This document shows positions 4,290 to 4,983 of a stretch of 64,000 nt of DNA, in pieces. A program made the translations under genes and the position numbers. How positions within the stretch are numbered: the stretch's first letter is position 1; the number at the start of each line of letters is the position of its first letter. The DNA comes from Candidatus Melainabacteria bacterium (GTDB lineage Bacteria > Cyanobacteriota > Vampirovibrionia > Obscuribacterales > Obscuribacteraceae), in contig RXJR01000015.1 in NCBI GenBank assembly GCA_003963305.1, positions 62,001-126,000 on the forward strand, given 5' to 3'. The notes under the pieces were generated by a model. It saw only the letters and a list, made by a program, of their open reading frames with translations. It made no database searches and was not told where the DNA came from.

Positions 4290-4327
4290 GTCACAAGCGC
4301 GTCACGCGGCTGTCATAAGCAGGTCAC
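4290..4327 (+). promoter_or_regulatory. Four GTCAY units at exact 11-bp spacing: Pho-box-like operator
   Basis: GTCAC occurs at 4290, 4301 and 4323, and GTCAT at 4312, so every unit starts 11 bases after the last. The right half reads CTGTCATAAGCAGGTCAC, close to the enterobacterial PhoB box (two 11-bp repeats of CTGTCAY plus four A/T-rich bases). A -10-like CATTAT at 4338-4343 begins 11 bases after the last unit, the arrangement of Pho-activated promoters that lack a -35. Regulation of the secreted protein at 4393 by a PhoB/OmpR-type activator is inferred. Confidence 0.5.
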
Positions 4328-4337
4328 GACCGTAGCT

Positions 4338-4343
4338 CATTAT
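4338..4343 (+). promoter_or_regulatory. Candidate -10 element (CATTAT) of the 4393 gene
   Basis: CATTAT matches four of six TATAAT positions and lies at Pho-regulon spacing from the GTCAY array. Transcription would start near 4350. This excludes the upstream ATG at 4342 and favours ATG 4393 as the translation start. Confidence 0.35.
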
Positions 4344-4392
4344 GGGTGTACAAACCGAAACCTGGGTTTGCTCATTAAAGAGGAACGACGCG

Positions 4393-4983
4393 ATGTTTGC
4401 GACTGCGGCTAGATTTGCTTTGCTGAGCCTCCTGATCGGTCTGTTTACAGCCGGTCCCGCCGGTGCACAAAATGTCCGCCAGGCAGTAAATCGCATAGCC
4501 ACCAGGGCGGTCGGCAACGTGCTCAGACAAGCCACCGGAAATTCCAATCGTGCAGTTACTCAAAATTCGCCTCAAGGTGGTGTCATCCCTGGTGTCATCA
4601 TGCTGCCGAACGTATCGACTGCATCGGTCGACCTCAACACTTGCGACATGGATTTCATCGGCGGCAGATCGCGTCCATCGGCTGGACCGGGCGGCGGCAG
4701 CGGTGGCAGCGGCGGCTCAAGCGGCGGCGTCGATACGACAGGATATCCACCCAAACCAGGTCCTGACTACCAGCCCATGACGCAGCACGGACAATTTGTG
4801 GGATGGTACAGCCCGGAGGAAGTCGCTCTTTCCCAAACAGACTTTCCTGCCGCCCTGGTAAGCATTCTGAGAAGCGATCGTTATTATGGTGGCATAAGCG
4901 GAGCGGCATCAATTTTGTACGAAATTGGAGCAATTTCCAGTCCATTTAACTTCGACGAAGCAGCAGCATTTCTTGGCAAGTAA
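4393..4983 (+). CDS. Secreted hypothetical protein, 196 aa, Gly/Ser-rich middle
   Basis: I place the start at ATG 4393, preceded by AGAGGA, rather than 17 codons upstream. The upstream choice would put a hydrophilic stretch ahead of the signal peptide and would begin inside the promoter. The signal peptide (MFATAARFALLSLLIGLF, cleavage near PAGA-QN) is clear. The middle holds a GGGSGGSGGSSGG linker, and the C-terminal part (about 100 aa, with QHGQFVGWYSPEEV) looks folded. No family is recognised. The Pho-box-like array upstream suggests expression under phosphate limitation, which is inference. Confidence 0.6.
   Translation: MFATAARFALLSLLIGLFTAGPAGAQNVRQAVNRIATRAVGNVLRQATGNSNRAVTQNSPQGGVIPGVIMLPNVSTASVDLNTCDMDFIGGRSRPSAGPGGGSGGSGGSSGGVDTTGYPPKPGPDYQPMTQHGQFVGWYSPEEVALSQTDFPAALVSILRSDRYYGGISGAASILYEIGAISSPFNFDEAAAFLGK

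Follow-up and report, generated by a model that had tools for sequence, protein, structure and literature searches.

Direct repeats with an 11-bp period are common to several regulators of the OmpR/PhoB family that respond to different signals, and naming a regulator from the repeat alone is therefore unsafe. In E. coli phoA, the PhoB box GTCATAAAGTTGTCAC (GTCAT-N6-GTCAC) is followed after 10 bp by TATAGT, the distance that generally holds for PhoB promoters in E. coli (PMC1906773). The array described here lies in a window of 64,000 nucleotides (the whole stretch of DNA that was analysed) and resembles the PhoB box in its 11-bp GTCAY repeats, the last of which is separated by 10 bp from a TAnnnT −10 box. 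It differs in its number of units, four, most of which lack the CT of CTGTCAT; the targets of such arrays are not phosphate genes, and in sister genera the arrays are linked to a regulator other than PhoB. The Streptomyces AfsQ1 site, GTnAC-n6-GTnAC (PMC6988585), likewise consists of five-base units six bases apart, and units 1 and 2 of the window fit it, but unit 3 ends in T, and the AfsQ1 site is limited to two units, against three or four in these arrays, and controls sigQ and antibiotic genes in actinobacteria. The cre/blr-tag of E. coli CreB, TTCACnnnnnnTTCAC (TTCAC-n6-TTCAC; PMC3660660), has the same period of five plus six bases, but it has two units that begin with T, whereas every unit in the window begins with G. 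The Pho box of cyanobacterial SphR is also built on an 11-bp period, in three tandem repeats, but its unit is CTTAACCT (PMC1906773) and not GTCAY, in agreement with the remark in the original prediction that SphR boxes differ from this array.

The array is beyond chance. A tandem operator of this family has at least two direct repeats at an 11-bp period; the window has four (Table 1), and the GTCAY units and the exact 11-bp spacing originally reported are found to the letter. A four-unit pattern searched with up to three mismatches gave three matches in the window against 0.05 expected, each a register of this single array, and none of 100 dinucleotide shuffles of the window reached three; even the two-unit pattern was confined to positions 4290-4327. 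Across the whole 7.48-Mb genome, the exact three-unit pattern occurred six times, corresponding to four separate arrays, and its backwards version did not occur, while across 50 family genomes the three-unit pattern was found 97 times against five for the reversed control. Three-unit arrays are present in 23 of these 50 genomes and in 10 of 24 genera.

Table 1. Features of the array-bearing promoter and of the gene behind it
Feature	Position in window	Strand	Basis or conservation
Operator unit 1, GTCAC	4290..4294	+	Sequence; invariant in 3 genus orthologues
Operator unit 2, GTCAC	4301..4305	+	Sequence; invariant in 3 genus orthologues
Operator unit 3, GTCAT	4312..4316	+	Sequence; invariant in 3 genus orthologues
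Operator unit 4, GTCAC, promoter-proximal	4323..4327	+	Sequence; invariant in 3 genus orthologues
Unit 4 counterpart in sister genera, degenerate GTY			GT in 44/44 arrays of two sister genera
−10 element, CATTAT	4338..4343	+	Invariant in 3 orthologues
Predicted 5′ UTR hairpin, CAAACC...GGTTTG	4351..4370	+	In all three genus orthologues; weak, z −1.1 to −2.2
Ribosome binding site, AAGAGG	4378..4383	+	Sequence
Controlled gene, 196-aa protein	4393..4983	+	ORF

The other two genomes of the genus have the same four-unit array and CATTAT ahead of the orthologous gene; all 20 unit bases and CATTAT are invariant there, and the six-base spacers vary. The gap from unit 4 to CATTAT is exactly 10 bp, as in E. 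coli phoA, which bears out the earlier statement that the −10-like element lies at the right spacing. This phasing recurs in the family: among the 83 arrays whose flanks were read, TATNNT begins 48 bases from the first G of unit 1 in 32 arrays and 49 bases from it in eight, with any further offset represented by at most two arrays each. In the sister genera g5 and g19 (44 arrays), a fourth unit is present with its GT kept in every array, and the −10 box reads TAnnnT, with T at offset 48 in 100%, A at 49 in 90% and T at 53 in 90%, giving a layout of three GTCAY units, a fourth GTY unit, 10 bp and TAtnnT. A pattern that required TATNNT exactly 10 bp past the fourth unit had 30 matches in the 50 genomes and none when reversed; with one mismatch allowed, it added nothing in this genome beyond the site in the window. 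The window array thus has both a constant distance to the −10 box and an operator lying over the −35 region. These features support its assignment as a class II promoter under the positive control of an OmpR/PhoB-family regulator that would bind head to tail, the mechanism originally suggested.

The promoter drives a gene whose start we reassigned, because the ATG at 4342, the mechanical start of the ORF, overlaps the −10 box. The ATG at 4393 aligns with the starts of both orthologues, is preceded by AAGAGG and is likely the true start codon. Read from there, the 196-aa product begins with a Sec-type signal peptide, MFATAARFALLSLLIGLFTAGPAGAQ, and has a Gly-rich linker and a C-terminal PGPDYQPMTQHG-FVGWYSPEEVALSQTDFPAA domain; no Pfam family matched it, consistent with the earlier description of an unknown secreted protein. 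The orthologues in the genus are 74% (G034) and 72% (G033) identical, and relatives occur in 25 of the 50 family genomes, mostly through the C-terminal part. Arrays precede three more genes in this genome, among them the gene for a second secreted protein whose C-terminal part is related to that of the window's product, and its array is also kept in both relatives of the genus (L110, L114). Across this non-photosynthetic cyanobacterial group, the arrays precede mostly unannotated proteins, and none was found before a phosphate gene; the few Pfam matches among the 75 first genes after arrays, a set in which gene starts were chosen by a simple rule and the one-mismatch sites of this genome were annotated in part, include EF-hand, calpain and matrixin proteases, GH125, LysM and others.

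A candidate for the type of regulator involved comes from the sister genera. In g5, in g19 and in one genome of g22, an array gene faces a convergent gene for an OmpR-type response regulator, which we call RR-X. Its orthologues, found in 10 genomes and 69 to 100% identical to the query, lie beside an array gene at all 10 loci, so that in three sister genera an OmpR-type regulator is linked to the operators. Arrays occurred within about 1.5 kb (measured from the regulator or from its edge of the fetched stretch) at 10 of 10 RR-X loci, compared with none of 32 other family regulator loci scanned (Fisher p 7e-10), and arrays with a −10 box occurred in nine of the 10 RR-X genomes compared with four of the 40 others (p 3e-6), both tests counting related genomes as independent. 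The recognition helix of RR-X, PEGLRTAIKRIRKKID, is nearly invariant. Array-bearing genomes without RR-X (g1, g4, g8, g11, g17 and G045) indicate that other regulators read such boxes or that some matches are due to chance.

The window's genus is itself one in which RR-X is absent, and RR-X was dropped as the regulator there because no match in the genus exceeds 62% identity; this genome's best match, at 57% identity, is one of many paralogues. No regulator gene adjoins the window's array. The OmpR-type DNA-binding domain Trans_reg_C has 69 matches in this genome, many of which belong to a single expanded group of paralogues, and 37 paralogues reach E 1e-60 or better against a related regulator. 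In G033, one such paralogue is convergent to an array gene (L112), and its best match in this genome is 60% identical. Given the absence of RR-X and of a close orthologue of the G033 paralogue, the paralogue group can be named here but the individual regulator cannot, and an RR-X-like paralogue is the most likely regulator of the window's array. Within 1.5 kb of 28 paralogue loci of the genus we found no three-unit arrays, a range too short for long-gene targets, of which L112 in G033 is an example. A regulator at C16:70448 lies 2.3 kb from the second secreted protein's array and is 88% identical to a G034 regulator that lies 4.3 kb from the corresponding array, a proximity that can be due to chance in a genome with 69 such regulators. 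Our search of the literature on two-component control in Melainabacteria returned nothing on such arrays or regulators.

The reading originally proposed was that of a true Pho box, which would have the PhoU-linked PhoB encoded on contig C5 bind the array and induce the secreted protein under phosphate limitation. The 11-bp spacing, the GTCAY core and the 10-bp gap to the −10 box do match E. coli phoA, the genome carries a PhoR-PhoB-PhoU operon (C5:142.6-144.9 kb, L167), and such boxes can precede genes that lack an obvious phosphate role (PMC4415409). The match to the PhoB box is nevertheless partial, holding for period and core but not for the full CTGTCAT heptamer, which is complete only in unit 3. 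The original prediction had proposed looking for arrays before phosphate genes, and those examined have none: two-unit arrays are absent at PhoU loci, at 14 larger PhoU/PhoB loci of the family and at this genome's two genes for Pit-type transporters, and the array search, run over the whole genome, with PstB, PhoU and Pit as the phosphate genes searched for, placed no box before pst, phoU, phosphatase or phosphate transport genes. None of the 75 genes that come first after arrays matches a phosphate family in Pfam. No PstB above the family cut-off was found in this genome, which is 95% complete; matches below the cut-off were read as generic ABC ATPases. A Pit transporter has also been described in the relative Obscuribacter phosphatis (PMC4040986). 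In the C5 operon the kinase reads short, at 292 aa, and pst genes do not lie alongside. PhoU is present in 41 of the 50 genomes and arrays in 23; PhoB accompanies PhoU in every larger PhoU locus examined, but many genomes with PhoU have no arrays, so that arrays do not accompany PhoU-linked PhoB across genomes. Moreover, a different regulator co-locates with the arrays: the recognition helix of PhoU-linked PhoB, KTVAVHVRWLRQKLE, differs from that of RR-X, and the PhoB helix, KTVAVH(V/I/M)RWLRQKLE, is alike in genomes with and without arrays. The phosphate reading of the window promoter is thus not supported, and we regard a true Pho box as unlikely.

Some members of the OmpR/PhoB family act as repressors, and the overlap of the array with the −35 region would also suit a regulator that represses the gene, for example by blocking polymerase. 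The fixed 10-bp spacing is that of an activated promoter, however, with the promoter-proximal unit in phase with the −10 box, and we consider repression quite improbable. That the array is a meaningless tandem duplication would be in keeping with the few family matches that are plain tandem repeats, such as L124, in which GTCATATAGCA is copied exactly. The repeats in the window, by contrast, have GTCAY alone in common and differ in their six spacer bases, the units are kept between species and the spacers are not, and arrays are enriched genome-wide, leaving duplication a negligible prospect; conservation of the units across the genus genomes led us to discard chance along with it.

We consider it probable that the array is part of a promoter of the gene at 4393-4983 that is activated by an RR-X-like regulator, in a regulon of mainly secreted or otherwise unannotated proteins and not of phosphate uptake genes; the inferred parts of this explanation are the binding, activation as opposed to repression, the identity of the regulator in the genus, and the signal. 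Most likely, subunits of a phosphorylated response regulator of the OmpR/PhoB family would line up head to tail on the four 11-bp units, and the last of them would occupy the place of the −35 box and bring RNA polymerase to the −10 box, the way PhoB works at E. coli phoA. This protein would most likely belong to the large RR-X-like paralogue group and would not be the PhoU-linked PhoB. More broadly, an expanded group of OmpR-type regulators may have taken over promoters of PhoB geometry in this family of non-photosynthetic cyanobacteria for a phosphate-independent regulon of mostly uncharacterised exported proteins, with orthologous RR-X beside one target in three genera and a short N-terminal motif common to many targets, a reading to which we give even chances. 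For a lineage known mostly through metagenomes, the arrays supply a regulon that can be tested and a candidate regulator, and since a single gene behind a clean promoter is the target at the level of the genus, the prediction could be tested at little cost in E. coli or in vitro. They also caution against taking GTCAY repeats at an 11-bp period, even with a −10 box placed as in PhoB promoters, as sufficient evidence of phosphate control.

Several smaller observations concern the targets and their surroundings. In the window, the predicted hairpin sits between the promoter and the ribosome binding site. At another locus of this genome (L129, C18:145393), three exact units are followed by GTCCC and a further, out-of-phase GTCAG, and the array precedes a 196-aa protein without assigned function. 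Among the first genes after arrays (L060-L107, L119), many encode Sec-less products with a common short motif, approximately (S/D/A)(R/K)L(F/L/M)(D/E)E, about 20 to 35 residues in. A motif sampler scored this motif at 14.1 bits per sequence, compared with 12.2 to 12.6 in shuffles, and it may serve as an export or targeting signal.
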